A stretch of 64,000 nt of DNA, taken from NCBI RefSeq assembly GCF_000744705.1, contig NZ_JQML01000001.1, positions 2,862,017 to 2,926,016 on the forward strand. Direction: 5' to 3'. Origin of the DNA: Streptacidiphilus albus JL83 (lineage in GTDB: Bacteria > Actinomycetota > Actinomycetes > Streptomycetales > Streptomycetaceae). The position numbers and the translations under genes are program-made. Position 1 is the first letter of the stretch; every line of letters starts with the position of its first letter. Below the pieces are notes generated by a model. The model saw nothing but the letters and a program-made list of their open reading frames with translations. It did not search any database and was not told where the DNA came from. Below are positions 12,892 through 35,752 of the stretch, one piece after another.

Positions 12892-14088
12892 ATGACCACC
12901 ACACGAATGCAGGCGCTCGCCCGCGACGACCTGCCGCTCCACGCGCTCGCGACCCGGCTGCTGGCCGTCGCCGAGGCCGGTCTTCCGGCGATGTACCGGC
13001 CGGAGGACGAGGCCTTCGCCTTCACCCTGGCCGGCAGCCGGGCCCCGGACGGCTCCTGGCGGCTGGAGCGGCGCGGCACCAGCACCCGGTACGCCGCGAT
13101 CACCGTGCTCGGCGCCCGCTACCTGCCGGAGCCCCGCCAGCGGGCGGTGCTCGGCGGCCACAGCGCCGAGGAGTTCACCAGCCTGCTGGTACAGCGGCTG
13201 CCGGAGGTGGCCAACCTGGGCGACGCGGCGCTGATCGCCTGGGCCGCCGCCGAGACCGGTCACCCCAAGCTGGCCGACGCCCTGGCCCGGACGGCCGCGC
13301 TGGACGCGGACGGAGGTCCCCGCTACACCGTTGAGGCCGCCTGGGTGCTGTCCGCCCTCGCCGCCGCCCGGCACTCCGAGGCCGGCGGCACGGAGCTGGA
13401 GCGACGGCTGAGCACGGCCCGGGACCGGCTGCTCCGGGCCAGGAACGCCGGCAGTCCGCTCTTTCCGCACGCCACCGGGCCCGGCCTGGTCCCCTGGTAC
13501 CGGGCGCACGTGGCCTGCTTCGCCGACCAGACCTATCCGCTCCAGGCCCTCGCCAGGACCCATGCGAGCGCCGACGGGCCCGGCGGCGACCCGGAGGCCC
13601 TGGCTGCGGCCGACGCCTGCGCGAAGCGGATCTGCGAGCTCCAGGGCGAGGGCGGCCAGTGGTGGTGGCACTACGACGCCCGGCCGGGCCGGCTCGTGGA
13701 GGGCTACCCGGTCTACAGCGTGCACCAGCACGCGATGGCGCCGACCGCGCTGTTCGACCTGGCCGACGCCGGCGGCGCCGACTTCTCCGCCGAGATCCGG
13801 CGCGGACTGCGGTGGATGACCGAGGTGCCGGAGCTGGCCGTCGGCTCCCCCGGCGGCACGCCGTCCGAGCCGATGATCCTCGACGACCTGGGCGTCACCT
13901 GGCGCAAGGTCCACCGGGGCGACCCGCGCAAGGCGGTCCGCGCCGGGCAGGGGCTGGCCTCGCTGGCGCGGCCGGGACGGCGGCTGGCGCTGCTGGACCG
14001 GCTGTACCGCCCCGCCTCGGTGGACCGGGAGTGCCGACCGTACGAGTTCGGCTGGATGCTGCACGCCTGGCTCGGAGGTGCGCAATGA
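12892..14088 (+). CDS. alpha/alpha-toroid protein of unknown function
   Basis: Protein of 398 residues predicted to be almost wholly helical. Segments such as LQGEGGQWWWHY near residue 250 and SRAPDGSWRL near residue 50 resemble the QW repeats of squalene-hopene cyclase/prenyltransferase folds (QxxxGxW), suggesting an alpha/alpha toroid. A conserved-looking stretch, GYPVYSVHQHAMAPTALFDL, contains paired histidines that could be catalytic. No signal peptide or membrane segment is seen. ATG 12892 has GAAGG before it. The stop overlaps the WecG/TagA-type gene (ATGA), so the product is made together with the ManNAc-sugar enzymes. A role acting on the lipid-linked intermediate is only a guess. Confidence 0.75.
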   Translation: MTTTRMQALARDDLPLHALATRLLAVAEAGLPAMYRPEDEAFAFTLAGSRAPDGSWRLERRGTSTRYAAITVLGARYLPEPRQRAVLGGHSAEEFTSLLVQRLPEVANLGDAALIAWAAAETGHPKLADALARTAALDADGGPRYTVEAAWVLSALAAARHSEAGGTELERRLSTARDRLLRARNAGSPLFPHATGPGLVPWYRAHVACFADQTYPLQALARTHASADGPGGDPEALAAADACAKRICELQGEGGQWWWHYDARPGRLVEGYPVYSVHQHAMAPTALFDLADAGGADFSAEIRRGLRWMTEVPELAVGSPGGTPSEPMILDDLGVTWRKVHRGDPRKAVRAGQGLASLARPGRRLALLDRLYRPASVDRECRPYEFGWMLHAWLGGAQ

Positions 14089-14960
14089 CCGACCTGTCCT
14101 TACCGGGCCAGTCGATACCGGAGCAGTCGATGCCGGAGCAGTCGTTACCGGTCGCGCGCCGGAGCCTCTTCGGGGTCGAACTGGACCCGCTGACCATGGA
14201 CCAGACCGTGGAGCGCTGCCTGGCGGCGGTGCGCTCGGGCGAGCAGCTGGAGATCGGCGTGGTCAACGCCGCCAAGCTGGTGAACATGCGGCGCGACCCG
14301 GGGTTGGCCGAGGCGGTGTCCGGCTGCGACCTGGTGCTGGCCGACGGGCAGGCCGTGGTCTGGGCCGCCCGGGTGCTGCGCACCCCGCTGCCGGAGCGGG
14401 TGGCCGGCATCGACCTCTTCCTCCGGCTGCTGGCCGAGGCCGAGCGCGGCGGAATCCCGGTCTACCTGCTGGGCGCCGAGCAGTCGGTGCTGGACCTGAT
14501 GCTCGAACAGACCGCGCTGAGCTTTCCCGACCTGCTCGTGGCCGGGAGCCGCAACGGCTACTTCGAGGACGCCGAACAGGGCGCGATCGCCGACGCGATC
14601 GCGGACAGCGGAGCCCAGTTGCTGTTCCTCGGGATGACCTCGCCCAAGAAGGAGATCTTCACCGCGGGCTACGGCCGGCGCAGCGGCGTCCGGGTCGTCC
14701 ACGGCGTCGGCGGCTCCTTCGACATCCTGGCCGGCGTCACCCGGCGGGCCCCCGCCTCCTGGCAGCGGCTGGGCCTGGAGTGGCTCTACCGCGCGCTGCA
14801 GGAGCCGCGCCGACTCGGGCGCCGCTACCTCACCACCAACGTCCGCTTCCTGCTGATGACCGCCCGCGAGCTGGTGCACCGCACCCCGCCGCCGGTCCGC
14901 AGCCAGCCCCGGCAACCCGCTCCACCGTCAACCGGATCCGTGCACAGGAAGAGGCAGTGA
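14085..14960 (+). CDS. WecG/TagA/CpsF family glycosyltransferase (GT26)
   Basis: GT26 glycosyltransferase of 291 residues. These enzymes add ManNAc or ManNAcA to an undecaprenyl-linked acceptor. Signature segments are VVNAAKLVNMRRDPGL, DLVLADGQAVVWAARVL, ERVAGIDLFLRLL and LLFLGMTSPKKEIF; the Asp of LADGQ corresponds to the proposed catalytic base of TagA. The first 25 residues are a short repeat (PGQSIPEQSMPEQSLPV) that looks disordered. The gene overlaps the toroid gene by four bases and its stop shares one base with the dehydrogenase start. Neighbours that make UDP-ManNAc and oxidise it support a ManNAcA-type donor, as for WecG. Confidence 0.87.
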   Translation: MTDLSLPGQSIPEQSMPEQSLPVARRSLFGVELDPLTMDQTVERCLAAVRSGEQLEIGVVNAAKLVNMRRDPGLAEAVSGCDLVLADGQAVVWAARVLRTPLPERVAGIDLFLRLLAEAERGGIPVYLLGAEQSVLDLMLEQTALSFPDLLVAGSRNGYFEDAEQGAIADAIADSGAQLLFLGMTSPKKEIFTAGYGRRSGVRVVHGVGGSFDILAGVTRRAPASWQRLGLEWLYRALQEPRRLGRRYLTTNVRFLLMTARELVHRTPPPVRSQPRQPAPPSTGSVHRKRQ

Positions 14961-16216
14961 TGCGCGTCGTCGTCGTGGGACAGGGCTATGTGGGCCTGCC
15001 GCTGGCCATCAGGGCCGCCGAGGTCGGACACGAGGTGGTCGGCTACGACGTGGACTCCCGGCGGGTCAAGTCGCTCGCCGCCGGGGAGTCGTACGTCGAG
15101 GACGTCTCGGCGGAGCGGATCCGGGCGGCGCTGGCCGACGGCAGCTACCGCCCGACCGACCGGGCCCGGGACTGCGGCGGTTTCGACACCGCCGTGGTGA
15201 CCGTGCCGACGCCGCTGCGCGAGGGGCTGCCGGACCTCAGCTACATCGAGGAGTCGGCCCGCACCCTGGCCCGCTACCTGCGTCCCGGGGCCACGGTGGT
15301 GCTGGAGTCGACCACCTATCCCGGCACCACCCAGGAGCTGTTCGCCCCACTGCTGGAGAACGGCTCCGGGCTCACCGCAGGCCGTGACTTCCACCTCGGC
15401 TACAGCCCGGAGCGGATCGACCCGGGCAACGCGGTCTGGGGCTTCCAGCAGACGCCCAAGGTGGTCTCCGGGGTGGACCCGGAGTCGCTCCGCGCCGTCC
15501 AGGAGTTCTACGACGGGCTGGTGGACACCACGGTGCCGGTCCGGTCCCCCAAGGAGGCCGAGCTGGCCAAGCTGCTGGAGAACACCTTCCGGCACGTCAA
15601 CATCGCCCTGGTGAACGAGATCGCGATGTTCGCCCGGCACCTGGGCATCGACGTCTGGGAGGCGATCGACGCGGCCTCCAGCAAGCCCTTCGGCTTCATG
15701 CGGTTCACCCCGGGACCGGGCGTCGGCGGCCACTGCCTGCCGATCGACCCCTCCTACCTGTCCTGGCGGGTCCAGCGCGAACTGGGCCAGAACTTCCGCT
15801 TCGTGGAGCTGGCCAACGACATCAACAACCACATGCCGGAGTACGTGGCGCGGCGGCTGGCCGACGCCTTCAACGAGCGCCGCCGCTCGGTGAACGGCTC
15901 CCGGGTGCTGCTGCTCGGGCTGGCCTACAAGAAGAACACCGGCGACGCCCGGGAGTCGCCGGCGCTGCGGGTGGCCCGGCTGCTGCTCGACATGGGCGCC
16001 GAAGTCAGGGCGGTCGACCCGCACGTGGTCGAGCACGCGCCGGTCGACTCCCGGGTGTGCCGGGTCGAGGCGAGCCCGGAGGAGCTGGCGGCGGCGGACG
16101 CGGTGGTGCTGCTCACCGACCACGACTCCTTCGACTACGACGAGGTGCTGGCGCACTCCCGCTACGTCCTGGACTGCCGGCGCCGGATCGCCGGCCCCAC
16201 GGTGGAGGTGCTCTGA
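14960..16216 (+). CDS. UDP-N-acetyl-hexosamine 6-dehydrogenase (WecC/WbpA-like)
   Basis: Nucleotide-sugar dehydrogenase of 418 residues that oxidises C6 of a UDP-HexNAc to the uronic acid with two NAD+. The NAD-binding GQGYVGLPLAIRAAEVGHEV lies at residues 7-26. The catalytic cysteine is Cys259 in GVGGHCLPIDPSYLSW. A central dimerisation helix region (KLLENTFRHVNIALVNEI) and a C-terminal domain with GLAYKKNTGDARESPAL complete the three-domain family plan. It sits directly between the GT26 transferase and the UDP-GlcNAc 2-epimerase with almost no spacing. UDP-ManNAc is the natural candidate substrate, giving UDP-ManNAcA; UDP-GlcNAc is the alternative if the pathway is the WbpA type. Confidence 0.9.
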   Translation: MRVVVVGQGYVGLPLAIRAAEVGHEVVGYDVDSRRVKSLAAGESYVEDVSAERIRAALADGSYRPTDRARDCGGFDTAVVTVPTPLREGLPDLSYIEESARTLARYLRPGATVVLESTTYPGTTQELFAPLLENGSGLTAGRDFHLGYSPERIDPGNAVWGFQQTPKVVSGVDPESLRAVQEFYDGLVDTTVPVRSPKEAELAKLLENTFRHVNIALVNEIAMFARHLGIDVWEAIDAASSKPFGFMRFTPGPGVGGHCLPIDPSYLSWRVQRELGQNFRFVELANDINNHMPEYVARRLADAFNERRRSVNGSRVLLLGLAYKKNTGDARESPALRVARLLLDMGAEVRAVDPHVVEHAPVDSRVCRVEASPEELAAADAVVLLTDHDSFDYDEVLAHSRYVLDCRRRIAGPTVEVL

Positions 16217-16219
16217 GCC

Positions 16220-17347
16220 GTGGCGACGACGAACACGACCATGACGCGGATCGTCTGCGTGGCCGGGGCCCGGCCCAACTACATGAAGATCAAGCCGGTG
16301 ATGGACGCGCTGGAGCGGCGGGGCGCGGAGGTGCTGCTGGTCCACACCGGGCAGCACTACGACGAGTCGATGAACGGGGTCTTCTTCCGGGACCTCGGGC
16401 TCCGCCCGCCGGACCACTTCCTCGGCGTCGGCTCCGGCAGCCACGCCGAGCAGACCGGCCGGGTGATGACCGCGTTCGAGCCGCTGCTGGCGCGGCTCGC
16501 CCCGGACGCGGTGGTGGTCGTCGGCGACATCAACTCCACCCTGGCCTGCGCCCTGGTCACGGCGAAGGCGGGGCCGCTGCTGGCGCATGTCGAGGCCGGG
16601 CTGCGCAGTCGCGACTGGGGCATGCCGGAGGAGGTGAACCGGGTCGCCACCGACCGGGTCAGCGACTACCTGCTGGCCTCCTCCCCGGACGCGGCGGACA
16701 ACCTCCGCGCCGAGGGCTACCGCGCGGACCAGGTCCACCTGGTCGGCAACGTCATGATCGACACCCTGTTCGCCAACCTGGAGCGGGCCCGGCAGTCGGA
16801 CGTCCTCCGGCGGTACGGACTCACCCGGGGCGGCTACGGACTGGTGACCCTGCACCGGCCGGCCAATGTCGACGACCCCGGGGTGCTGGCCGGGCTGCTG
16901 AAGGCGCTCGGGGTGATCGCCGAGCACTGTCCGCTGCTGCTGCCGGTGCACCCCCGGGCGGCCGGGCGGCTGACCGAGCTCGGCGTCCCCGGCGGGCTGC
17001 GGCTGGTCCCGCCGGCCGGCTACCTGGACTTCATCGCGCTCCAGGACGCCGCCCGGATCGTCCTCACCGACTCCGGCGGGGTCCAGGAGGAGACCACCGC
17101 GCTCGGCGTCCCCTGCGTCACCCTGCGGGACAACACCGAGCGCCCGATCACGGTGGAGCAGGGCACCAACGTCCTGGCCGGCCGCGATCCGGAGCGGATC
17201 ACCGCGACCGTGGCCCGGGTGCTGGAGCACCCGCCCGCGCCGCGCAGACCGGCGCTGTGGGACGGCAGGGCGAGCGAGCGGATCGCGGACGTGCTGCTGA
17301 CCGGCGGCGGCGCGGCGACCCGCCCCCGGCCCACCGACCTGATCTGA
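16220..17347 (+). CDS. wecB: UDP-GlcNAc 2-epimerase (non-hydrolysing)
   Basis: Epimerase of 375 residues that interconverts UDP-GlcNAc and UDP-ManNAc, or acts on the diacetamido-uronic acid as in WbpI. Family motifs are all present: VAGARPNYMKIKPVMDAL at the start, VHTGQHYDESMNGVFF, VEAGLRSRDWGMPEEVNR, and LTDSGGVQEETTALGVP. GTG 16220 is chosen because GGAGG lies 11 bases upstream; ATG 16241 lacks a ribosome binding site. It follows the dehydrogenase by three bases, completing a GT26-dehydrogenase-epimerase run that makes and uses a ManNAcA-type sugar. Whether the substrate is GlcNAc or its 3-acetamido uronate cannot be told from sequence alone. Confidence 0.88.
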   Translation: MATTNTTMTRIVCVAGARPNYMKIKPVMDALERRGAEVLLVHTGQHYDESMNGVFFRDLGLRPPDHFLGVGSGSHAEQTGRVMTAFEPLLARLAPDAVVVVGDINSTLACALVTAKAGPLLAHVEAGLRSRDWGMPEEVNRVATDRVSDYLLASSPDAADNLRAEGYRADQVHLVGNVMIDTLFANLERARQSDVLRRYGLTRGGYGLVTLHRPANVDDPGVLAGLLKALGVIAEHCPLLLPVHPRAAGRLTELGVPGGLRLVPPAGYLDFIALQDAARIVLTDSGGVQEETTALGVPCVTLRDNTERPITVEQGTNVLAGRDPERITATVARVLEHPPAPRRPALWDGRASERIADVLLTGGGAATRPRPTDLI

Positions 17348-17395: not shown

Positions 17396-17498
17396 CGATC
17401 TTGGCTCATGCGTTCGCTCCTGAGTCAGGGTCAGATGACGGCGACGTCGCGACCGCTGCGGCGCGACACTCACAATGCGGGCCTCGAAGGGGAGCACC

Positions 17499-18335
17499 AT
17501 GGATCTCGCGGAGATCTTCCGGGTGATGCGCAGGCGGTGGTACGTACTGCTGCCGGGACTGCTGCTCACCGCCGCACTCGCGGCCGGCGTCCTGGTCGCG
17601 GACCCGACGAAGTACCAGTCCCAGGCCACCGTGGAACTGCTCAACTCGCAGAAGGCCACCGTCTCCTTCGACGGGAACCCGTTCCTCAGCACCCAGGTCG
17701 CGCTGACCTCGATGGCCGACACCCTCTCCCGCGACCTCAACTCGGACGCCTCGGTCGCCGCGCTCAAGTCCCAGGGTCTGACCGGCACTTCCAATGCCAT
17801 GATCGCGGACAATGCCGAGGCGCCGCTGCTGTGGCTGACCGTCACCGGCACCAACAGCGCGGAGGTGCTCAAGTCCGACCGGATCATGGCCGGTTACGCG
17901 GCGCAGCGGCTGCAGCAGCTGCAGCAGCAGCTGTCGGTGAACCCCGACGCGATGATCCGGATGATGACCATCGTGCCGCCGCAGGCGCCGGCCGCGCAGA
18001 CCAAGACCAAGATCGAGTACATGGCACTGGCCGGGGTGCTGGGCCTGGCGCTCACCCTGGCCGGCTGCTTCTACGCGGAGGCCCGCACCCGGCCCCGGGT
18101 GCTGCCGGAGTCCATGGCCGTCGAGAACTCGGCGGCGGGCGGGGCCGACGGCGACGGCGACCTCGGCGACGAGGGCCCCGATCCCGACGGCCTCGATCCC
18201 GACGGCCTCGACGCCGATGGTCTGGACGCCGAGGCGGCCGCCGACGAGACCGTCCAGCTCGCGGTGCTGCCCGCCACCGCCGCGGGGACGCACCGGGCCG
18301 CCGGGGCCGCCGCCGAGTCGCTCTGGCTCTCGTGA
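17499..18335 (+). CDS. Wzz-like chain-length protein
   Basis: Protein of 278 residues with the Wzz layout: a short cytoplasmic start MDLAEIFRVMRRRWYVLLPG, a first membrane helix (about 17-37), an extracytoplasmic helical domain with QRLQQLQQQLSVNP, and a second membrane helix (about 178-196) after the Pro-rich VPPQAPAAQ. Such proteins set chain length in Wzy-dependent polymer synthesis. No tyrosine-kinase domain follows; instead there is an acidic tail with a five-residue repeat (DPDGL, DPDGL, DADGL). ATG 17499 follows AAGGGGAG. The stop overlaps the flippase GTG start (GTGA). Two further proteins with the same N-terminus occur at 21695 and 23797. Confidence 0.82.
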   Translation: MDLAEIFRVMRRRWYVLLPGLLLTAALAAGVLVADPTKYQSQATVELLNSQKATVSFDGNPFLSTQVALTSMADTLSRDLNSDASVAALKSQGLTGTSNAMIADNAEAPLLWLTVTGTNSAEVLKSDRIMAGYAAQRLQQLQQQLSVNPDAMIRMMTIVPPQAPAAQTKTKIEYMALAGVLGLALTLAGCFYAEARTRPRVLPESMAVENSAAGGADGDGDLGDEGPDPDGLDPDGLDADGLDAEAAADETVQLAVLPATAAGTHRAAGAAAESLWLS

Positions 18336-19900
18336 CCCTCGCGCCCCCGGGCCCCGGAGCCGAGGAGGACCCGGCTCCGGACCACGACGCAGCCTCGGCC
18401 TCCGCCACGGCCACTGCCACCGCCGTGCCCGCCTCCCTCGGCACCAAGGTGCGCTCGGCCGCCCGCTGGAGCCTGATCAACACCGTGGTGATGCGGCTGG
18501 GCAACTTCGCCACCGGCATCATCCTCGCCCGGTACGTGCTCGGCCCGGCGGCCTGGGGCGTCTACGGGATGGCGCAGACCGTGCTGCTGGTGCTGCTGTC
18601 CGCCAACGAACTGGGCGTGGGCCTGGCCATCGTCCGCTGGGACGGCGACCCCCGGCGCTTCGCGCCGACCGTGCTGACCCTGAGCACCCTCTCCAGCAGC
18701 CTGCTCTACGCCGTGCTCTTCGCCGTCGCCCCGGCCGTGGCCGGGCTGCTGGGAACCCCGAGCGCGGCCGGGGTGCTCCGGGTGATGTGCCTGTGCGTGG
18801 TGCTGGACGGGCTGTCGCAGGTGCCGGCCGGCTTCCTCACCCGGGAGTTCGCCCAGGGGCGACGGATGGTGATCGACGCCGTCAACTTCGCGCTGAGCAC
18901 CGGGATCACGCTGGCGCTGGCGTTCCGCGGCTGGGGCCCGATGAGCTTCGCCTGGGGCTCGGTGGCGGGCAATGTCGCCGCGCTGATCGGCTGCTGCCTG
19001 GCTGCGCCGGGGACGCTGCGCTTCGGCTGGAACGCCGAGCAGGCACGGGCGCTGCTGCGGTTCGGGCTGCCGCTGGCCGGGGCCAGCCTGCTGGCGCTGG
19101 GCGTGGTCAACGTCGACACCATGGTGGTCGGCGCCACCCTGGGCAAGGTCGAACTCGGCTTCTACGTCCTGGCGTTCAATATGTCAGGCTGGCCGGTGCG
19201 GATCATCTCGGAGGCGGCGAGACGGGTCTCCTTCGCCGGCTTCTCCCGGTTGGCGGACTCCCCGCAGGCGCTGGCCGCCGGCTTCTCCCGGGCGCTGGGC
19301 GTGCTGGTCACCGGCACCGTCCCGCTCTGTGTGCTGCTGGCCGGGCTGGCCGCGCCGGTGGTCCAGCTGGTCTACGGCTCGGAGTGGCTTCCGGCCGCCA
19401 GGGCGCTGCCCTGGCTGATGGCGCTGGGCCTGGTCCGGATCGGCTGCGAGCTCTCCTACGACTGCCTGGTGGCCTGCGGACAGCGCCGACTGCTGATCAT
19501 CGCCCAGGGCGTGTGGCTGGGCGCGCTGATCCCGGTGCTGATCGTCGCCGCCCGGACCCGCGGCATCGTCGGGGTGTCCGAGGGCCATGTCCTGGTCGCG
19601 GCCGGGATCGTGGTCCCGGTCTTCCTGCTGGGACTGCACCGGGGCGGCATCGGCCCCGCCGCCGTGGCCCGCGCCTGCGCCTGGCCGTTCCTCGGCGGGG
19701 CGGTGATGGCGGCCGGGATCTGGGGCCTGGAGCACGCCCTCGGCACCGGCCGTCCCGCACTGCTCGCGGTCGCGGCGGCGGTCACCCTCGCCTACCTGGT
19801 CTGCGTGCTCCCCAGCCGCGGCTTCCTGCTGGGCCGCCCCGCCCGGCCCGGACGCCACCGGGCGGCCGCCCGCCCCCTGCCGACCCCGGTCGACCGGTAA
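18332..19900 (+). CDS. Wzx-like polysaccharide flippase
   Basis: Integral membrane protein of 522 residues with about twelve to fourteen hydrophobic helices, in the polysaccharide-transporter branch of the MOP superfamily. It begins with a polar Ala/Thr-rich leader and then SAARWSLINTVVMRLGNFAT and IILARYVLGPAAWGVYGMA, the usual Wzx start. It should flip the lipid-linked repeat unit across the membrane. GTG 18332 overlaps the Wzz stop, and a GT2 gene follows after 17 bases. Wzz, flippase and transferases on one strand mark a Wzx/Wzy-type assembly locus; the polymerase appears to be the fusion protein at 21695. Confidence 0.87.
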   Translation: MTLAPPGPGAEEDPAPDHDAASASATATATAVPASLGTKVRSAARWSLINTVVMRLGNFATGIILARYVLGPAAWGVYGMAQTVLLVLLSANELGVGLAIVRWDGDPRRFAPTVLTLSTLSSSLLYAVLFAVAPAVAGLLGTPSAAGVLRVMCLCVVLDGLSQVPAGFLTREFAQGRRMVIDAVNFALSTGITLALAFRGWGPMSFAWGSVAGNVAALIGCCLAAPGTLRFGWNAEQARALLRFGLPLAGASLLALGVVNVDTMVVGATLGKVELGFYVLAFNMSGWPVRIISEAARRVSFAGFSRLADSPQALAAGFSRALGVLVTGTVPLCVLLAGLAAPVVQLVYGSEWLPAARALPWLMALGLVRIGCELSYDCLVACGQRRLLIIAQGVWLGALIPVLIVAARTRGIVGVSEGHVLVAAGIVVPVFLLGLHRGGIGPAAVARACAWPFLGGAVMAAGIWGLEHALGTGRPALLAVAAAVTLAYLVCVLPSRGFLLGRPARPGRHRAAARPLPTPVDR

Positions 19901-20741: not shown

Positions 20742-20762
20742 CCGGACCGGCTCACGGTCCGG
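20742..20762. terminator. bidirectional hairpin between convergent GT2 genes
   Basis: CCGGACCG (20742-20749) and CGGTCCGG (20755-20762) form a perfect eight-bp stem around GCTCA, which contains the stop codon of the minus-strand gene. It sits six bases after the plus-strand stop, so it can end transcription from both sides. Confidence 0.6.
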
Positions 20763-21690
20763 GGGTGGCCCGGAGGGCGGCGTTGCTGAGGAGGGCGGCG
20801 GCCGCCGCGCGGCTCGGGGCCCGGCCGAGGGCGGCCCGGCTGGCCTCGCGCAGCAGCACCGCGGCGCGGAAGGCGGTGGAGGCGAGGCCGCCGTGGCGGC
20901 GGCGGTGCAGCCGGACCCGGTTGAGCACCAGCAGCGTCCACAGCCGGGGCGATACCTGGGAGTCGCCGCCCAGGTGCTCGGCCGAGGCCGTGGGCTGGAG
21001 CCGGGTGGCGAAGCCGAGGTCCCGGGCCCGGAGGCAGTACTCGGTCTCCTCGGAGTAGAGGAAGTAGGACTCGTCCCAGCGCCCGCAGGCGTCCAGGCAC
21101 TCGCGGGAGAGCAGCATCAGCGCGCCGGAGGCCCAGTCGGCGCGGGTCCGGCGGGTGTAGGCGGCCGGGTCGGTGATCAGTTCGCCCAGCGCCGGGAAGC
21201 GCCCGGCCCGGCGGTTGCCGATGACCGCCTCGCCGAGCGCCCGGACCACGCTGGGCTCCCGGCGCAGCGAGGGCATCCTGGTCCCGTCGGCCTCGTACAG
21301 CAGCGGGACGGCGATGCCGACCCGGTCGCCGTCGGGCAGCTGCTCGCCGAGGGTGTCGACCAGGGCCGCCGCGCAGCCGGGGTGCAGCCGGATGTCGGGG
21401 TTGCAGATCAGCACCGCGCGGACGTCCGGTCCCGCGGCGTCGAGGGCGGCGTTGATCGCGGCGGAGTAGCCGGCGTTGCGGCCGGTCTGCACCAGGGTCG
21501 CGTCGGGGGCCTGCTCCCGCAGGAGGGCCACGGTCTCGTCGGCGGAGTCGTTGTCGGCGACGACGAGCCGCCAGTCGTCGACTCCGGCCAGGCCCTCCTC
21601 CAGCGAGGCCAGGAAGCCGGGGAGGACCCGGGAGCTGTTCCAGGTGACGGCGATGACGGCCACGGTGGTCGGCTTGGGTGAGGTTGGCAT
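20752..21690 (-). CDS. GT2 glycosyltransferase (rhamnosyltransferase-like)
   Basis: GT2 enzyme of 312 residues close to the rhamnosyltransferase group. Motifs in order are VAVIAVTWNSSRVLPGFL, VVADNDSADETVALLREQ, TGRNAGYSAAINAAL, and LICNPDIRLHPGCAAALVD (the DxD-like element), then WASGALMLLSRECLDACGRW and FLYSEETEYCLRAR, the usual acceptor and catalytic-base region. ATG 21690 is chosen because it starts just before the fold; the gene begins four bases after the Wzz-Wzy stop on the same strand, so the two are one transcript. It likely adds one residue of the repeat unit on the cytoplasmic face. Confidence 0.85.
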   Translation of the reverse strand: MPTSPKPTTVAVIAVTWNSSRVLPGFLASLEEGLAGVDDWRLVVADNDSADETVALLREQAPDATLVQTGRNAGYSAAINAALDAAGPDVRAVLICNPDIRLHPGCAAALVDTLGEQLPDGDRVGIAVPLLYEADGTRMPSLRREPSVVRALGEAVIGNRRAGRFPALGELITDPAAYTRRTRADWASGALMLLSRECLDACGRWDESYFLYSEETEYCLRARDLGFATRLQPTASAEHLGGDSQVSPRLWTLLVLNRVRLHRRRHGGLASTAFRAAVLLREASRAALGRAPSRAAAAALLSNAALRATPGP

Positions 21691-21694
21691 CGGT

Positions 21695-23704
21695 TCAGTT
21701 CTCCACGAGTTGGGGGACGGGGTGGCGGCGGACGGGCGCGGGCAGGGCGGTCGCCGCCTCCGCGTCGGCACGGACGAAGGCGAGGTAGCGGCCGCCGGCG
21801 CCGAGGGTGAGGAAGAACATCCCGGCGAACATGGCGAAGCTCAGCGAGTCGAAGGTGGCGCTGATCACCAGGGCGACCAGCGCCGAGGCGAAGAACGCCT
21901 GCCCCAGCTCCCGGTCGGACTCGGTGCGGGCCAACCGCCGGATCGCACCGCCCTGGTGGATGCCGGTCAGGTAGAGCGTCAGCAGGGCGACCAGCCCGAA
22001 GGCGCCCATCTCGGCGGCGGAGAGCATGTACTGGTTGTCGGTGAAGAAGTAGAGGTCCGGCGTGAAGGTCCCGAACCCCCGTCCGAACAGCGGCCGTTCG
22101 GTGAGGTACGGGAGGATCTCGGAGTACTTCACGGTCCGGGCCTGGGTGCTGCTGTCCGAGTTGGAGAGGAAGGAGGAGAAGAGGTTGATGATGGTGCCGA
22201 TCAGCCCGGGGATGACCATCTTCAGGGCTCCGACCGAGGCGATGACCACGCCGATCGCGGTCCACCGCCGCTGCGGCCGCCAGCGGAGCACCATCACGGC
22301 CAGCACCAGCGCGATGCCGATGATGGAAGTCCGGGAGACGGTCAGCGGCAGTGCGCCGCCCATGATCACCACCGGCCCCCAGCGGCGGACCAGGTGCAGG
22401 TGCCGGCGGACCGGGTCGAAGGCCTGCTGGATGGCGAAGGGCAGCAGGATGGACAGCATCCCGCCGAACTCCAGCGGCTGCGCCGTGGTCGAGCGGGGCC
22501 GGGTGAACGAGCCCCGGTCCATCGCCGAGATACCGGTGGTGCTGGCGTGCAGGCCGGGGATGTTGATGGAGTCGGCGATGTTGGTGGAGGTGAAGAAGTC
22601 GTAGTAGCCGAGCGCGGCGACCACCGTGGCCATCACGATCAGCCGGCGCATCAGCGTGTCCAGCCGGGCCCGGTCCTGGATCCCGGCCGAGGTCAGCACC
22701 ACCAGGCCGACCCAGGCCAGCAGCCCGATCAGCCCCCGGTCGGCGCCCATCACCTCCTCGTGCGAGCTGGAGCGCAGCGCGTCGGCGACATAGGAGCAGA
22801 GCACCGCGCCGGTCAGCACGCACATCGCCAGCCTCGGCCCGCGGGTGCCGGCCGCCGGGACGATCCGGTCGCAGAACCAGGTCGCCAGGTACCACATCAG
22901 TCCGAGCAGCGCGAAGACGTTGGCCGGGGTGCCGACCCCGCCGAGCGCCGGCAGCGCCAGGTCGGAGGGGATGAACAGGGCCAGCGCCAGGTAGACGGTG
23001 AGCACGGTGGTGGCGTCCACCGGGTGGCCGAGGAGCCGGCCGGCGGCCCGGCGGACCGGCCAGGGGTTGATCCGCGCCCCCTGGAACGGCCGCCTGCGTC
23101 GTGCCAGCACCACGCTCTCGGTGACGAAGGAGAGCAGCAGCCCGCCGGTGGCGCCGAGGATGACCACCCCGGCCACGAACTGGTACTTGCTCTTGGACTG
23201 GGTGACCGGCGCCTGCGGCAGCACCACCGGCGCGGTGGTCACCATGTAGGCGGCCGGCACGCCCGCCTGCTGCTGGAGGGCCGCGAGTTGGGATCCGGCG
23301 AAGGCGGTGATGGTGCTGGTCTCGTGGAGCACCTTGTCCCGGTCGGGGCCGGTGACGGTGAGCGTGATCAGCGGGCCCGAGGCGTCGGCGGCGAAGCCGA
23401 CGGTGTAGGCGTCGGTGACGCCCAGCCCCTGCAGCGCCTCGGCCGAGTCGCCGGACTCCACGGTGCGGATCAACAGGTCGGCAGTGACCACCAGCGAGCC
23501 GCCGGCGTTGGAGATCGGGTTGCCGTAGGTCGGGGCGAGCTCGGCCACGGCCGAGGAGTCGAGCAGCGAGACCGAGCTGGTCGACTGGTAGACCGGCGGC
23601 ACGTGGACGTACAGGTAGCCGCCGGCCAGCAGCCCCAGCAGGGTCAGCGGCACCATCAGGTACCAGCGCCGGCGCAGCACGGCCAGAATCTCACTGATGG
23701 TCAT
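21695..23704 (-). CDS. Wzz-Wzy fusion: chain-length domain plus O-antigen-polymerase-like membrane protein
   Basis: Protein of 669 residues that joins two functions normally on separate chains. Residues 1 to about 205 are Wzz-like: MTISEILAVLRRRWYLMVPL, membrane helix, periplasmic-type domain, the VVLPQAPVTQSKSKYQF proline segment and a second helix. From about residue 220 it is a polytopic protein with about ten helices and a large loop (residues about 380-560) holding AMDRGSFTRPRSTTAQPLEF, the pattern of Wzy/WaaL-type polymerases and ligases. Near the end EILPYLTERPLFGRGFGTF is typical of O-antigen ligase-family proteins. It is the only polymerase candidate in the locus. It is divergent from the third Wzz gene by 92 bases. 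Confidence 0.85.
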   Translation of the reverse strand: MTISEILAVLRRRWYLMVPLTLLGLLAGGYLYVHVPPVYQSTSSVSLLDSSAVAELAPTYGNPISNAGGSLVVTADLLIRTVESGDSAEALQGLGVTDAYTVGFAADASGPLITLTVTGPDRDKVLHETSTITAFAGSQLAALQQQAGVPAAYMVTTAPVVLPQAPVTQSKSKYQFVAGVVILGATGGLLLSFVTESVVLARRRRPFQGARINPWPVRRAAGRLLGHPVDATTVLTVYLALALFIPSDLALPALGGVGTPANVFALLGLMWYLATWFCDRIVPAAGTRGPRLAMCVLTGAVLCSYVADALRSSSHEEVMGADRGLIGLLAWVGLVVLTSAGIQDRARLDTLMRRLIVMATVVAALGYYDFFTSTNIADSINIPGLHASTTGISAMDRGSFTRPRSTTAQPLEFGGMLSILLPFAIQQAFDPVRRHLHLVRRWGPVVIMGGALPLTVSRTSIIGIALVLAVMVLRWRPQRRWTAIGVVIASVGALKMVIPGLIGTIINLFSSFLSNSDSSTQARTVKYSEILPYLTERPLFGRGFGTFTPDLYFFTDNQYMLSAAEMGAFGLVALLTLYLTGIHQGGAIRRLARTESDRELGQAFFASALVALVISATFDSLSFAMFAGMFFLTLGAGGRYLAFVRADAEAATALPAPVRRHPVPQLVEN

Positions 23705-23796
23705 GTCCGGCCCCCTGCAACGGAGTCGGTGCTGCGTGAATCGGTGGCAGCGGCCGGAGCGCCCTGACAGTATCGGTGCTGACGGAAGGATGTCCC

Positions 23797-24537
23797 TTGT
23801 CGCCCGGTGAGTTCCTTCGTGTGCTGATCCGCCGCTGGTACCTGCTGGTGCTGGCGCTGCTGCTGGCCCTGGGCGGCGCCTACCACGTGCTGCGGCCGAC
23901 CCGGCTGTACCTCAGCTCGGCGGTGATCGTGCTCAAGCCGCCGGTGACCGGTGGACAGCCGAACCAACTGGCCAACCTCCAGCCGACGCTGGCCACGGTC
24001 TCGGTCGCGGTGCTGCAGCAGATGCAGTCGCCCTCCGGCCTGGCCGAGCTGCACGCCGCCGGGGTGCACGGGACGTACGGGCTGCTGCCGAGGAACAGCG
24101 GGACCAGCGCCACCCCGCAGTACCTGATCCCCTCGGTGCAGGTGCAGTCCGAGCTGACCGACCCGGCCTCGGCGAACCGGGTGGCGCAGGAGCTGATCGC
24201 CGTCTACACCCGGCACGTGGCGGACCTCCAGGCGGCCGAGGGCGTGCCCCTCGCCTCCCGGATGAGCGTGGACGTGCTGGTGGCGCCGAGCGCGGCCGAG
24301 GTCTTCGGCACCAAGAGCCGGGGGCTGGCCGGGGTCGGCCTGCTGGGCCTGGTCGGCGGGGTGCTCGCGGCACTGTGGACCGACCGCTGGGCCCTGGCCC
24401 GGCAGCGCCGACGCGCGGCGCGGGGCGCGGCGGACGGCGGGACGGACGGCGGCGGTCACAGGCCGCGCCGCTTCCAGGACTCCCACCACAGCCACTCGCG
24501 TCCGCGCTCGGCCACGGCCGAGAGCACCAGCGGCTGA
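23797..24537 (+). CDS. Wzz-like protein with TTG start
   Basis: Protein of 246 residues with the Wzz plan: LSPGEFLRVLIRRWYLLVLA, first membrane helix, extracytoplasmic domain, second helix near residue 180, and a basic cytoplasmic tail. TTG 23797 is favoured over GTG 23776: GGAAGGA (23784-23790) is correctly spaced from TTG, and that start lines up with the first residues of the two other Wzz-like proteins here. The last 82 bases overlap the end of the GT2 gene on the other strand. The tail (RRFQDSHHSHSRPRS) is low complexity and may be an extension past an ancestral stop. It stands alone between two minus-strand units. Confidence 0.75.
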   Translation: MSPGEFLRVLIRRWYLLVLALLLALGGAYHVLRPTRLYLSSAVIVLKPPVTGGQPNQLANLQPTLATVSVAVLQQMQSPSGLAELHAAGVHGTYGLLPRNSGTSATPQYLIPSVQVQSELTDPASANRVAQELIAVYTRHVADLQAAEGVPLASRMSVDVLVAPSAAEVFGTKSRGLAGVGLLGLVGGVLAALWTDRWALARQRRRAARGAADGGTDGGGHRPRRFQDSHHSHSRPRSATAESTSG

Positions 24538-25626: not shown

Positions 25627-28600
25627 TCAGTCCAGGATGTTCTCCGATCCGGAGGGCGACGGCTTCGGCACCGGCTTGCCCTGCTTCGCCGACTGCGTCT
25701 CCGCACTGCCGCCGGCACCGGCCGAGGCGGAGGGCGAGGGCGACGCGGCGGCCGAGGCGCTGGGGGTGAACAGCGGGCCGACCCAGTAGTTGTCGTTGCC
25801 GTAGCTCCCGGTCGGGAAGGCCGAAGCACCGTAGCTGTAGAGGCCGTTGGCCGATCCGGTGGCATCGGCCAGGGCGGTCAGCGGGTAGTTCTCGAACGCC
25901 TGGCCGAAGTAGCCGGAGTTGTAGGCGTAGTTGCCGTTCGGCGCATGGTACGAGACCACGTAGGGCGTGTTCGCGGCGATGGTCACCGGGGTGGCGAAGG
26001 TCAGCGTCTGCCAGCCGGAGGCGGTCTCCTTGGTGAAGGTGCCGGTGGCCAGCAGGGTGCCGCCGTTGCTCCACAGGCTGCCGGTGTGGGTGCCGGTGTT
26101 GCCCGTGCCCTTGTAGAAGGTGACGCCGGTGACCTGGCCGGCCACCGCGGACTGGAACCGGGTGCCGAGCTCGACCGAGTTGGGATCAGTGGTCTCGTCG
26201 GTCACCGTCGGCGTGGTGCCGCCGCTCCACAGCCCGCAGGGGCAGTTGAGCGTCGGCGGGGTGGGGCTGGTGGTGAAGGTCCAGGTGACCGGGGCGGTCA
26301 TGGCGTTGCCCCAGAGGTCGGTGGCCGACACCGAGGCGGTGTAGGTGGTGTTCAGCGCCAGGTCGCTGGAGGGGGTGAAGGTCACCGAGTCGCCGGTGCC
26401 CGGGGCCGCCGTGCCGGGCACGGCGTGGCCTGAGGAGTCGGTGAGGGTGAAGGCCAGCGTGCTGCTGTCGATCTCCTCGTTGAAGGTCGCCGACACCGGC
26501 GCCGCGATGGAGACCCCGGTCGCCCCGGAGCCCGGGGTGGTCGTGGTGACCGAGGGCGGGGTGGTCGAGGCGGTGGCGGTGGTCAGCACCGCGTCCACCC
26601 AGTAGTTGGCCCCGTTGGAGGTGGAGGTGGGGAACCCGCCCCCGGCGCCGTAGCGGTAGACGCCGTTGTCGCCGTCGGCGCCCTCCTGGAGCGCGGTCAG
26701 CGGGGCCAGTCCGGCGCCGCTCCTGGCGAAGTAGCCGGCGTCGTAGGAGTAGTCGCCGCCGGGCGCGTAGTAGCCGGCCACGTAGACGGTGTTGGCCTTG
26801 ACCGGGACCGGCGTGGCGAAGTCCATCTCCTGCCAGCCGGAGGCGGTCTCGTTGGTGAAGGTGCCGGTGGCCAGCAGGGTGCCGGAGCTGGTCCACAGGC
26901 TGCCGGTGTGGGTGCCGGTGTTCCCGGCCGACTTGTAGAAGCGGATGCCGGTGATGGTGCCGGGCACCGAGCTCTCGATCTTGACGCCCACCTCGATCGC
27001 GTTGGCGTCCCCGCTGTTGACCGTGCCGGGCACGGCCGAGGCCGGGAAGACCGTGCACGGGCACTGCTGGGCGCCGACGGTGACCGGGACGGTGGCGGTC
27101 GCGCCGACGTTGGCGCTGTCGTCCTCGGCCCGGACCTCGATCCTCGCCGCACCGGTGCTGGTCGGGGTCCAGCTGTAGCTCCAGGTCCCCAGGCCGGTGG
27201 CCGGGTTCCAGGTGGTCCCGCCGTCGGTGGAGACCTCGACCCGGGCCACCACGGCGCCGGTCGCGGCGGTGGCGGTGCCGGTGATGGTCACCGGCTGCTG
27301 GGCCGGGACGGTCGAACCGGCCAGCGGGGCGCGGACGGTGACCGTCGGCCCGGTGGTGACCGCGGACTGGGTCGCCGCCACCAGGCCCGACTGGATGGTC
27401 TGCGGCTGGACGCCCATGTCGGCCAGGATGTTGACGGTGGCCTGCTGCATGTCCGGGTCGGCCGTCACCACCTCGTCGGCCGGGTCGGCGGCCGGGACGT
27501 TGGTCAGCCCCCAGGACCACTGGACCGTGCCGGTGCCGAAGACCAGGGCGTTCGAGGTCGGGTCGCGGAACTCGACCAGGTTGTTGGTCGCGGTGCCGGT
27601 GCCGTAGGTGTTGCCGTAGTCCAGCCGGACGTACTCGCCCGAGGTGATGTTCACGGTGGTCGAGGAGAGGTCGATCTCACCGCTGGGTCTGGTGGAGTCG
27701 TTGAGGTCGCTGTCCCACTCGTAGCCGAGCGTCCCGGCCGGGAAGGTCGCGGTCTGCGTCGGGCCGAGCTTGGCGACCGAGGTGTTCCGCCAGATCCGCA
27801 GACCGGCATAGGTCCCGGGGACGGTGAGCGCGTCGTTGCGGTTGCCGTTCATGATGAACAGCGAGCCGGTGAGGATGTTCTCCGCCTCCAGTGGCTGCCC
27901 GTAGGCGGCACTGCCCGGGTCCAGGAAGGCGCCGGTCCACACCCCCGTCGGATCGGCCACGCCGTCCGGCGGCGTCTGTTCCAGCTTGGTCATCTTGTAG
28001 CAGACCAGGGTCCGGTCGGTGGTCGAGGTGCCGTCGATGCTGGCGGCGAACCTGGTCTCCCAGGAGACCTCGTTGCCGCTGAAGAAGGCCTCGTTCACCC
28101 CGGCCCTGCGGGCGTTGAGGACATTGGTGAACTGGCTCTGGGTCCAGTACTCGTCGTGGCCGGAGGACATGAAGATCTTGTGGCTGGTCAGGTCGGCCGG
28201 TCTGGTCGAGACGTCCGCCCCGGACAGGTAGCTGACGTCGTAGCCGTTCTCCTCCAGCCAGGAGATCATCTCGAACTCCGAACCGAAGATCCCGTTGGCG
28301 CCGCCGATGTCCAGCGGGCGGTTGTAGCTGACCGCGTAGGCCCGCCCGTCGGGCGCGGGGCCGTTGCCCTGGTAGAGGTCCTGGCCGCCCCACATGTTGT
28401 AGGCCTGCCAGGTCTCGTCGTCGGTCTGGACCACGATGTTCGAGGTGCTGGCGTCGTCCCTGACCACGAACGGGTAGGGCATCACCCCGTTGCCGTCGGT
28501 CTGGTCGAGCTCGGCGATGTAGAGGCCGGAGACCGCGTCGGCGGGCACCTGCCAGGTCGCGGTGACCGGCCAGTTGCCGCAGTCGACCAGCCCGGTGCTC

Positions 28601-29061
28601 GCCTGGGTGTCGCAGGCCAGCGCCTTGCCGTTGGCGACGCCGTCGGTGGTGCCGTTGTCGGCCGGGGCTCCCGGCTTGCCGGTGGTGGTGAAGTTCGCCG
28701 GATAGGTGACCGCCGCCTGGGCCGCGGTGGACCACAGCCGCGCGCCGTCACCGCCGTAGTAGCCGAGCCGGTAGATCTCGATGGTGTACGGGATCGGCGA
28801 CTGCACCTTGAAGCTGACGGTGTCGCCGGCCTGGTAGCTCTCCTGGTCGGTGAAGCCCTCGACGGTGCCGTAGGCGTTGGCCGAGAACCAGTCCGACATC
28901 GGCGTGCCGGGCTTGGAGTTCTCACAGACGATGGGGTTGCTGCCCGCCCCGCAGGGGTCGCTCGCCGCGTGGGCGGAGCCGGACAGCGGCAGTGCGGCGA
29001 ACAGCAGAGTGGCGACCACGGAGAACAACCATCCCCGTAGCAATCTTCCTCTGTTCCTCAT
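25627..29061 (-). CDS. large secreted protein: DMFase-like domain, Ig-like domains and two DUF4082 domains
   Basis: Exported protein of 1144 residues. A Sec signal peptide (MRNRGRLLRGWLFSV, hydrophobic core, GSAHAAS cleavage region) leads into an N,N-dimethylformamidase large-subunit-like region of about 480 residues with YRLGYYGGDGARLW, WQAYNMWGGQDLY and FMSSGHDEYWT. An Ig-like module follows, then a DUF4082 domain (about 660-810), a Big_5-type Ig domain and a second DUF4082 domain (about 925-1075). The two DUF4082 copies share ITGIRFYKSAGNTGTHTGSL-type sequence. The Ser/Pro/Ala tail could cross the cell wall; no LPXTG is present. It lies within the polysaccharide operon, 51 bases after the WbpE-like gene, hinting at a role on the exported polymer; reaction unknown. 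Confidence 0.82.
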   Translation of the reverse strand: MRNRGRLLRGWLFSVVATLLFAALPLSGSAHAASDPCGAGSNPIVCENSKPGTPMSDWFSANAYGTVEGFTDQESYQAGDTVSFKVQSPIPYTIEIYRLGYYGGDGARLWSTAAQAAVTYPANFTTTGKPGAPADNGTTDGVANGKALACDTQASTGLVDCGNWPVTATWQVPADAVSGLYIAELDQTDGNGVMPYPFVVRDDASTSNIVVQTDDETWQAYNMWGGQDLYQGNGPAPDGRAYAVSYNRPLDIGGANGIFGSEFEMISWLEENGYDVSYLSGADVSTRPADLTSHKIFMSSGHDEYWTQSQFTNVLNARRAGVNEAFFSGNEVSWETRFAASIDGTSTTDRTLVCYKMTKLEQTPPDGVADPTGVWTGAFLDPGSAAYGQPLEAENILTGSLFIMNGNRNDALTVPGTYAGLRIWRNTSVAKLGPTQTATFPAGTLGYEWDSDLNDSTRPSGEIDLSSTTVNITSGEYVRLDYGNTYGTGTATNNLVEFRDPTSNALVFGTGTVQWSWGLTNVPAADPADEVVTADPDMQQATVNILADMGVQPQTIQSGLVAATQSAVTTGPTVTVRAPLAGSTVPAQQPVTITGTATAATGAVVARVEVSTDGGTTWNPATGLGTWSYSWTPTSTGAARIEVRAEDDSANVGATATVPVTVGAQQCPCTVFPASAVPGTVNSGDANAIEVGVKIESSVPGTITGIRFYKSAGNTGTHTGSLWTSSGTLLATGTFTNETASGWQEMDFATPVPVKANTVYVAGYYAPGGDYSYDAGYFARSGAGLAPLTALQEGADGDNGVYRYGAGGGFPTSTSNGANYWVDAVLTTATASTTPPSVTTTTPGSGATGVSIAAPVSATFNEEIDSSTLAFTLTDSSGHAVPGTAAPGTGDSVTFTPSSDLALNTTYTASVSATDLWGNAMTAPVTWTFTTSPTPPTLNCPCGLWSGGTTPTVTDETTDPNSVELGTRFQSAVAGQVTGVTFYKGTGNTGTHTGSLWSNGGTLLATGTFTKETASGWQTLTFATPVTIAANTPYVVSYHAPNGNYAYNSGYFGQAFENYPLTALADATGSANGLYSYGASAFPTGSYGNDNYWVGPLFTPSASAAASPSPSASAGAGGSAETQSAKQGKPVPKPSPSGSENILD

Positions 29062-34309: not shown

Positions 34310-35752
34310 TCAGTAGGCCCCCGTTCCGCGCATCACGGCCGGTCCGGTGCGGAGCAGGATGGCCAGGTCCAGGCCGAGGGACCAGTTGTCCACATAGCCG
34401 AGGTCGAGCCGGACCGCCTCGTCCCAGGGCAGGTCGGAGCGGCCGCTGACCTGCCAGAGGCCGGTGAGGCCGGGTTTGACCAGGAGTCGGCGCTTGACCT
34501 CCTCGGTGTAGCCCTCGACCTCCTCCGGCAGCGACGGCCGGGGGCCGACCAGCGACATGTGGCCGCTGACCACGTTGATCAGCTGCGGCAGCTCGTCCAG
34601 CGAGTAGTGCCGCAGCACCGAGCCGACCCGGGTGATCCGCGGGTCCTCGCGGACCTTGAACAGCACGCCGTCGCTGTTCTGGTTGAGGTGGGCCAGGTCC
34701 GCGCGCTGCTCCTCGGCGTCCTGGCGCATGGTGCGGAACTTGAGCATGGTGAAGTGCTCGCCGTGCTTGCCCACCCGCCGCTGCCGGAAGAACGCCGGAC
34801 CGGCGCTGTCCAGCCGGATCGTCAGGGCGACCCCCGCCAGTACCGGGGAGAGCACCAGCAGCAGCACCGCGGCCAGCAGCCGGTCCACCAACTCCTTCGG
34901 CAGGCGCGGGATCCGGGAGAGCACGGCCGGACTGATGTGCAGCATCGGCACCCCGCCGTGCGGCCGGGGGGCCAGTCGGGACGCGGCCACGTCCGCGAGC
35001 ATCGGCACCACCAGGAAGTCCACGGCCTGGGCGGCGGCGATCCAGGAGAGCCGGCGCAGCACCGACGCGTCGATCTCCGGAGCCGGCAGCACCACCACGG
35101 TGTTGCAGTGGGTGGAGCGGATCGCGGCGGAGACGTCGCCGAGCCCGCCGCCGACCGGGATGCCCATCTCGTCGACCACCGGCGCATTGGCCGGATCGGT
35201 GAGGCAGACCGCCATCACGCTCAACTCCTGTACGCCGCCCCGCCGCAGGACCGAGCTGAGCTCGGCCACCGTGCGCGAGGGACCGACCAGGAGGGCGGTC
35301 CGGCGGTCGCGGCCCTGCGCCCAGCGACGGTGCAGCCGGCGGCGCAGCAGATAGCGTCCGCAGACGCCGATCAGCGCGGCCGGGGCGGCGGCGAGCATCA
35401 TGTCGTGCAGCAGATGGGAGTTGTGGGTGAACCACCAGCAGGCGACGGCGGTCAGCGCCGGCAGGGCGACGGCGCCGCGCATGACCCGGCGGAACTCCTC
35501 GGTCCCGAGGCCGAGGGCGCGCCGGTCGTAGGCCCGGTAGGCGAACATGGCGAGGATCCAGGCGGGTGGCAGGCCCAGCGCCACGGACCAGCGTCCGTAG
35601 CCGGCATGGACCACCAGCGCCGCGAAGAGGGCCGCGAGACAGTCCGCGGCCAGAAGGACGACTGTGTAGTTCCGCTCCCTACGTCGTCGCCGGGCCCGTA
35701 AGCTCCGGCGTTCCACCACCTGCAACTCGTGCGTGACCGGTTCGACGGCCAT
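34310..35752 (-). CDS. priming polyprenyl glycosylphosphotransferase (WbaP/CpsE-like)
   Basis: Membrane enzyme of 480 residues that starts repeat-unit synthesis by moving a sugar-1-phosphate onto undecaprenyl phosphate. It has four to five N-terminal helices (residues about 28-140), a soluble CoA-binding-like middle domain, one more helix near residue 290, and the catalytic region: FTMLKFRTMRQDAEE, YSLDELPQLINVVSGHMSLV, GPRPSLPEEVEGY and KPGLTGLWQVSGRSDLPWDE. All are canonical for the bacterial sugar transferase family. ATG 35752 is the first gene of the long minus-strand unit running to 24456, and a 636-base promoter region lies upstream. Confidence 0.9.
   Translation of the reverse strand: MAVEPVTHELQVVERRSLRARRRRRERNYTVVLLAADCLAALFAALVVHAGYGRWSVALGLPPAWILAMFAYRAYDRRALGLGTEEFRRVMRGAVALPALTAVACWWFTHNSHLLHDMMLAAAPAALIGVCGRYLLRRRLHRRWAQGRDRRTALLVGPSRTVAELSSVLRRGGVQELSVMAVCLTDPANAPVVDEMGIPVGGGLGDVSAAIRSTHCNTVVVLPAPEIDASVLRRLSWIAAAQAVDFLVVPMLADVAASRLAPRPHGGVPMLHISPAVLSRIPRLPKELVDRLLAAVLLLVLSPVLAGVALTIRLDSAGPAFFRQRRVGKHGEHFTMLKFRTMRQDAEEQRADLAHLNQNSDGVLFKVREDPRITRVGSVLRHYSLDELPQLINVVSGHMSLVGPRPSLPEEVEGYTEEVKRRLLVKPGLTGLWQVSGRSDLPWDEAVRLDLGYVDNWSLGLDLAILLRTGPAVMRGTGAY

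Follow-up and report, generated by a model that had tools for sequence, protein, structure and literature searches.

Organization of the locus

We analysed 64,000 nucleotides of the Streptacidiphilus albus JL83 genome (contig NZ_JQML01000001.1, positions 2,862,017 to 2,926,016), referred to here as the window. On its negative strand lies an ORF with an ATG start and an unbroken translation of 669 aa, in which a Wzz-like co-polymerase half and a Wzy-like half are joined in one polypeptide (Table 1). The GC content of this ORF by codon position was 0.66/0.50/0.97, the pattern of a coding gene. Three GT2 transferases were found near the fusion and a fourth at 36389-37282; further genes of the locus encode a WecG/TagA-family transferase, two DegT aminotransferases, a Gfo/Idh/MocA oxidoreductase and two hexapeptide acyltransferases. 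This gene set is of the kind that would make a repeat unit containing acetylated amino and uronic sugars, the identity of the individual sugars being a prediction from gene content.

Table 1 Predicted features of the window and, in the last four rows, of other actinomycete loci (positions as given for each locus)
Feature	Position	Strand	Remarks
Wzz-Wzy fusion protein	21695..23704	-	669 aa ORF; Pfam and fold matches to both halves
Wzz-like co-polymerase half, residues 1-203	23096..23704	-	Model helices; KpsE, Wzc and Wzz matches; sub-threshold PF02706 at residues 3-52
Linker, residues 204-229	23018..23095	-	26 aa; poorly conserved, in frame; low pLDDT at residues 205-222
Wzy/WaaL-fold half, residues 230-669	21698..23017	-	WaaL 7tpg match, Z 21.4; residues invariant in unfused relatives
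Wzy_C domain, residues 445-575	21980..22372	-	Pfam match
GT2 glycosyltransferase	20752..21690	-	Pfam; directly downstream of the fusion, same strand
Wzz1, free Wzz-like paralogue 1	17475..18335	+	Upstream of wzx; Pfam Wzz 32.9 bits, over cut-off
Wzz2, free Wzz-like paralogue 2	23776..24537	+	Divergent from the fusion; Pfam Wzz 16.1 bits, below cut-off
Wzx-type flippase (Polysacc_synt_3, MOP flippase family)	18425..19900	+	Profile match
Non-hydrolysing UDP-GlcNAc 2-epimerase (wecB)	16220..17347	+	Over cut-off
Nucleotide-sugar dehydrogenase (NDP-sugDHase)	14960..16216	+	Over cut-off
Initiating polyprenyl glycosylphosphotransferase	34310..35752	-	EPS_sugtrans over cut-off
Reversed fusion L139	4099-6162	+	C-terminal Wzz domain on Wzy
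Reversed fusion L157	3148-5244	-	C-terminal Wzz domain on Wzy
Reversed fusion L170	3545-6130 (ORF)	+	C-terminal Wzz domain on Wzy
Candidate reversed fusion L134	862-2841	-	Weak, 22 bits; family other than that of L139, L157 and L170

Two other ORFs of the window recur in many syntenic loci: one of 1144 aa at 25627-29061 (negative strand), with a dimethylformamidase-like DMFA2_C domain, Ig-like domains and two DUF4082 stretches, and one of 398 aa at 12892-14085 (positive strand), located before the WecG gene and without a Pfam match. A membrane acyltransferase with an SGNH domain (45521-48625, negative strand) adjoins a GT2-type transferase (48708-50528); possibly these two form a separate polymer-modifying pair.

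The whole genome held only two Wzy_C genes. The other one, at 6.82 Mb (contig C1, 6.815-6.834 Mb; L097), is accompanied by an initiating-transferase-like neighbour and by a separate Wzz gene at a distance of about 4 kb, so that this genome contains both a fused and an unfused system.

Conservation of the fused reading frame

Scanning named genomes gave 55 loci, each of which belongs by title to a Streptomycetaceae genus or to an unplaced actinomycete. Both halves were present in every one of them, in a single unbroken frame in 54, including one (L053) that was partial by BLAST and proved intact on closer look. The sequence-only reading had pointed to a sequencing frameshift joining two genes as the danger to its proposal of a fusion. 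The lone broken frame (L054, 10001-12051) is shifted inside the Wzy half, at residues 414/415, away from the junction, and the shift is either genuine or a sequencing error. We also surveyed the window's family, taken as Streptomycetaceae from its overlap with the named loci: at E<=1e-40 a match was found in 43 of 297 genomes, which means that the locus is not present throughout the family. The matching genomes comprised 38 full-length fusions, one frameshifted copy (G130, by its coordinates the same assembly as L054) and four genomes with an unfused Wzy half only. Plasmid records yielded no full-length fusion, with one match of 29%.

The fused-family alignment contained 44 sequences (43 of the 55 named loci and the window), and the sets for the linker and dN/dS comparisons were made of 54 named loci, the window and L074, with the frameshifted L054 removed. 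Among these 56 fused sequences the linker varied from 22 to 47 aa, keeping the frame in all. Mean identity to the window was 26% in the linker, 65% in the Wzz half and 77% in the Wzy half, and the median dN/dS over 25 close pairs was 0.40, 0.16 and 0.14, respectively, evidence of purifying selection on both halves.

GC-rich DNA often contains long open frames, and L054 has a frameshift within this very gene, as might be found if two genes had been joined by an assembly or sequencing error. The gene is nevertheless whole in nearly all the named assemblies and in 38 of the 43 matching family genomes, with selection acting on both halves; this rules out an artefact or a pseudo-fusion, whose probability we regard as practically nil, and we have very high confidence that the fusion is real. 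On the sequence evidence the two halves are complete, co-linear and conserved.

We also inspected the junction for an internal restart that would yield a free Wzy, and none conserved in all 56 sequences was seen. A start-like codon at position 200, where TM2 ends (see below), was present in 37 of them and was the only one near the junction shared by more than one third; in columns 201-239 no start-like codon occurred in more than a quarter. Internal restart may take place in some species.

The Wzz half

As a protein, the N-terminal half scored 20.0 bits against Pfam Wzz (PF02706), below the cut-off of 25.5; the same match in a six-frame search of the genome reached 25.7 bits, just above it. 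Searches against the sequences of solved structures, with the protein or its profile, found no relative, the one weak match being an antibody chain. The Wzz identity is thus borderline from sequence alone, and it is the predicted fold that settles it. We obtained an AlphaFold2 single-chain model from the 44 aligned fused sequences, with modest confidence overall (mean pLDDT 63, pTM 0.58) and pLDDT by block mostly 64-90 in the Wzz half, with a dip at residues 51-70. In this model two helices, TM1 (14-34) and TM2 (170-203), flank an extracytoplasmic domain at about 35-169 with strands at 38-48, 99-104, 112-119 and 156-161; two TM helices around an extracytoplasmic alpha/beta domain are the trait of the PCP/Wzz superfamily. 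Structural comparison aligned residues 1-205 of the model with KpsE, Wzc and full-length WzzB/WzzE at Z 8-11.7.

The outer domain is short, about 135 aa. Enterobacterial Wzz has an extracytoplasmic helix of ~100 A (PMC10030265); this helix of the PCP-1 proteins is absent from the AlphaFold2 model, in which the longest outer helix (122-146) has about 25 residues. Given the short outer domain and the sub-cut-off Pfam score, the Wzz half of the fusion may not share the ring geometry of WzzE. No kinase domain was detected in the fusion protein by Pfam, and no tyrosine kinase in the genome exceeded the TIGR01007 cut-off (best score 39.7 of 108 bits), a search with one kinase model that pseudokinases may escape.

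The same two features, together with the lower conservation of the Wzz half relative to the Wzy half, would fit a Wzz half that, instead of regulating length, passively anchors Wzy in the membrane or acts as its chaperone. This is improbable in our judgement, since purifying selection on the Wzz half is near the level of the Wzy half and extracytoplasmic residues of the Wzz half are invariant in 44/44 aligned fused sequences.

The Wzy half

The C-terminal half matched Pfam Wzy_C (PF04932) with 60 bits against a cut-off of 31.7. Residues 228-645 of the model aligned with the ligase WaaL (PDB 7tpg) over 338 residues, and Foldseek also ranked 7tpg first. About 13-14 helices were counted across residues 231-639 in this moderate-confidence model, 10-14 TM segments being the trait of the Wzy family. 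The sequence-only reading, which described one chain carrying a complete Wzz-type N-terminus and a Wzy/O-antigen-ligase-like domain, is borne out by the presence of both TM helices in the model and of the Wzy_C domain and WaaL fold behind them. It had called for a domain search finding both families in one chain: Wzy_C lies over its cut-off, Wzz as a protein match lies below, and there the fold supplies the match. The lack of C-terminal ligase homology, which would have spoken against it, was not what we found.

Comparison with 88 unfused relatives (12 loci from another family of the order, four from one genus of the same family and 72 from other orders of the class) showed that R402, E412, R458, R523, G541, G543, D556, G567 and D619 of the window, putatively of the active site, are identical in all of them. 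Two motifs have been described, GN1 as RX(11-24)GXG and GN2 as HNX9GX(2-4)G (PMC12502699). GN1 is present as R523...G541xG543 and is invariant in 44/44 fused and 88/88 unfused sequences. At the GN2 position, D556-N557-X9-G567-X2-G570, the spacing is kept and Asp takes the place of His in the same 44 and 88 sequences. The GN2-position His is catalytic in WaaL, and the His expected of a WaaL ligase is here an Asp. By itself, this replacement would not exclude membership in the Wzy family, as GN2 occurs in most, not all, type-B Wzy (PMC12502699).

The name of the Pfam domain (O-antigen ligase) and the fact that WaaL is the best match among solved folds leave room for a different function, in which the C-terminal half would be a WaaL-like ligase for the finished polymer and the polymerase would be encoded elsewhere. 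The only other Wzy_C gene of the genome, at 6.82 Mb, comes however with its own Wzz and an initiating-transferase-like neighbour, the wzy genes of the relatives stand within a wzz-wzy-wzx operon, and the Asp at GN2 is found in the fusion and in all 88 relatives. Moreover, actinomycetes are not known to have a lipid A-core that could act as acceptor, which also counts against a ligase. The wzx-adjacent operon position in relatives and the Asp at GN2 thus favour, without proof, a polymerase over a ligase, and we consider the latter quite improbable. With high confidence, the Wzy half is predicted to be an active Wzy-family enzyme of this locus.

Free Wzz paralogues

The Wzz2 gene was found beside the fusion in 55/55 loci, always divergent, with the two starts 66-221 nt apart. 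Wzz1 was located upstream of wzx in 51 of the 55, and the remaining four loci stop short of this position; the Wzz1 query also matched the fused gene itself and such matches are excluded from these counts. In most loci of the unfused relatives the same divergent Wzz2 flanks the wzz-wzy-wzx genes. By gene content, the fusion is an addition to the free Wzz proteins and not their replacement.

A tree of 81 rows, some of them on long branches, placed the fused Wzz, Wzz1 and Wzz2 each in one group, with Wzz2 clearly apart. The AU test preferred neither a fused Wzz that is a recent duplicate of Wzz1 (p 0.41) nor one that is an older paralogue (p 0.44). It may be that Wzz1 and Wzz2 assemble into rings of their own or act in other steps. 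Paired Wzz paralogues seem common in actinomycetes: 33 of the 72 class loci (L118-L189) had at least two Wzz domains within the fetched stretch, mostly ~9 kb, and 17 had one on the opposite strand.

Origin of the fusion

The closest relatives without the fusion have wzz immediately before a separate wzy in the same orientation, with wzx behind them, and in all 16 loci examined wzz ends at a stop codon. Twelve of these loci came from another family of the order (f3) and four from a single genus of the window's own family (g19), to which all four family genomes with an unfused Wzy belong; in a thirteenth f3 genome (G039) wzz and wzy were on different contigs. Three of the four g19 loci have both genes in the same frame, with one TAG plus 6 nt between them, up to the first start codon of wzy, so that losing a single stop would fuse the two genes. 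The frames of wzz and wzy differ in the other 13 of the 16 loci.

The adjacent arrangement extends further: among the 72 loci from other orders of the class, 68 have a Wzz domain in the same orientation as wzy and no more than 800 nt ahead of it. The Wzy matches at L161, L168, L180 and L185 were partial. No N-terminal Wzz fusion was found in these 72 loci, four of which have a C-terminal Wzz domain on Wzy (see below), nor, by inspection of the match ranges, outside the window's family in a phylum sample of 296 genomes with 11 matching. As shown by this comparison of gene orders, the fusion derives from neighbouring wzz and wzy genes; the unfused adjacent state in relatives, together with the absence of N-terminal fusions elsewhere, indicates a derived fusion confined to Streptomycetaceae in these samples.

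A fusion in the reverse order

Three genomes (G471, G549 and G598, corresponding to L139, L157 and L170) of one actinomycete genus from another family encode the domains in the opposite order, Wzy followed by Wzz. Their chains are 75-76% identical over almost the full length. Pfam did not detect the C-terminal Wzz domain in the three proteins, which was recognized by family profiles built here with 54-60 bits; the fourth case (L134), with its weaker score by these profiles, is a candidate only. In profile-profile comparison the C-terminal extension of the three chains matched the Wzz2 family (probability 98.5, E 3.4e-15) and, with E 1.2e-4, the fused family. A free wzz still lies upstream of the reversed fusion in L139 and L170.

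Both the order and the paralogue differ from those of the Streptomycetaceae fusion, so the reversed form is most simply explained as an independent event. That the opposite order of fusion occurs in another genus is an argument for proximity being favoured in itself. Three other loci (L129, L182 and L183) carry wzz as a separate gene behind wzy in the same orientation, which is the unfused counterpart of the reversed order.

Proposed assembly

The explanation that we consider likely on the evidence above is that of a Wzz-like co-polymerase covalently joined to the Wzy of a Wzx/Wzy-type surface-polysaccharide locus. In it, the fused Wzz half would take its place among the subunits of a Wzz ring, with Wzy held in or at the ring lumen by the cytoplasmic linker of ~26 residues. 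Wzz is expected to have both its termini, and Wzy its N-terminus, on the cytoplasmic side, which would make the join topologically simple; by our own arithmetic an extended linker would reach ~90 A, to be compared with half of the 57 A lumen of WzzE, and could thus extend to the centre of such a ring. The tether would restrict Wzy to working inside the co-polymerase assembly. That Wzy is tethered to a co-polymerase oligomer is held with fairly high confidence.

The composition of the ring is a separate matter. One fused copy would bring one polymerase and eight fused chains per ring would bring eight. In the WzzE-WzyE complex of enterobacterial common antigen synthesis, about eight WzzE surround one WzyE, placed in a ring lumen 57 A wide (PMC10030265). 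This published ratio and the persistence of free Wzz genes favour a mixed ring with one tethered Wzy over an obligatory 1:1 assembly. Most subunits of such a ring would be supplied by free Wzz1, Wzz2 or both, giving a composition near the 8:1 of WzzE and WzyE; from our analysis we put this forward tentatively, at somewhat under even chances.

A fusion does supply Wzz and Wzy in a 1:1 ratio, and the separation of the three Wzz groups in the tree would allow them separate roles. The fused chains could accordingly form a homomeric ring or small oligomer, with Wzy outside the ring or otherwise arranged and with Wzz1 and Wzz2 employed elsewhere. A lumen like the 57 A one of WzzE (PMC10030265) would, however, hardly accommodate several polymerases of ~12 helices, the free Wzz genes are kept in all loci that reach them, and the sole measured complex is near 8:1, all of which makes the obligatory 1:1 assembly unlikely but possible. 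The sequence-only reading had stated that the fusion fixes the regulator to the polymerase; this leaves aside two Wzz paralogues that stand free in the locus, with which the composition need not be 1:1.

Extended to actinomycetes at large, the mixed ring becomes a proposal that we would sooner doubt than accept: rings would be mixed from two or three Wzz paralogues with one Wzy tethered to one subunit, and the tether would have arisen at least twice, in opposite orders and with different paralogues (Wzz-Wzy in Streptomycetaceae, Wzy-Wzz in the other genus), so that the ratio of fused to free chains would set the number of polymerases per ring.

Comparison with known systems

How Wzz sets chain length, and its working ratio with Wzy, are unsettled, and a 2025 review lists the stoichiometric interplay of the pathway components as yet to be described (PMC12004945). 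A natural fusion offers a handle on this assembly: its traceable origin, unfused sister lineages and adjacent free paralogues make the question testable, and a one-chain Wzz-Wzy may purify more easily than a loose complex. Physical Wzz-Wzy complexes and co-polymerase-kinase fusions are described in the open-access literature, in whose accessible texts, including by exact phrases, we found no description of a natural Wzz-Wzy fusion; automatic annotations may exist.

The closest functional counterpart is WzzE-WzyE, in which a Wzz-type co-polymerase and a Wzy-superfamily polymerase likewise act together, with one Wzy in the lumen of the Wzz ring (PMC10030265), a placement that would apply to the fusion as well. 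WzzE and WzyE are separate proteins at ~8:1, whereas the fusion is covalent, has a Wzz outer domain about half as long and is accompanied by free Wzz paralogues. According to the same source, a Wzz-Wzy complex is known from one system, at ~20 A resolution (PMC10030265). The view in the sequence-only reading that the fusion supports a physical Wzz-Wzy model holds as corroboration, the association itself having already been shown for separate proteins (PMC10030265).

Wzc (PCP-2a) is also a natural covalent co-polymerase fusion, with the extra domain behind TM2, but its partner is a tyrosine kinase and that of the fusion is the polymerase itself (PMC12004946). In the wps EPS clusters of Actinoplanes the same domains are found as predicted separate Wzz and Wzy proteins (PMC13390465), and so they are in the unfused actinomycete loci of this study (L062-L073, L091-L094 and L118-L189), where the separate genes are mostly adjacent and in the same order. 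WaaL shares the fold of the C-terminal half, from which it differs by the His of the GN2 motif; the fusion has in addition the attached Wzz and a place in a Wzx/Wzy-type locus. The domains and their interaction were known, and what is new is the covalent architecture and its origin.
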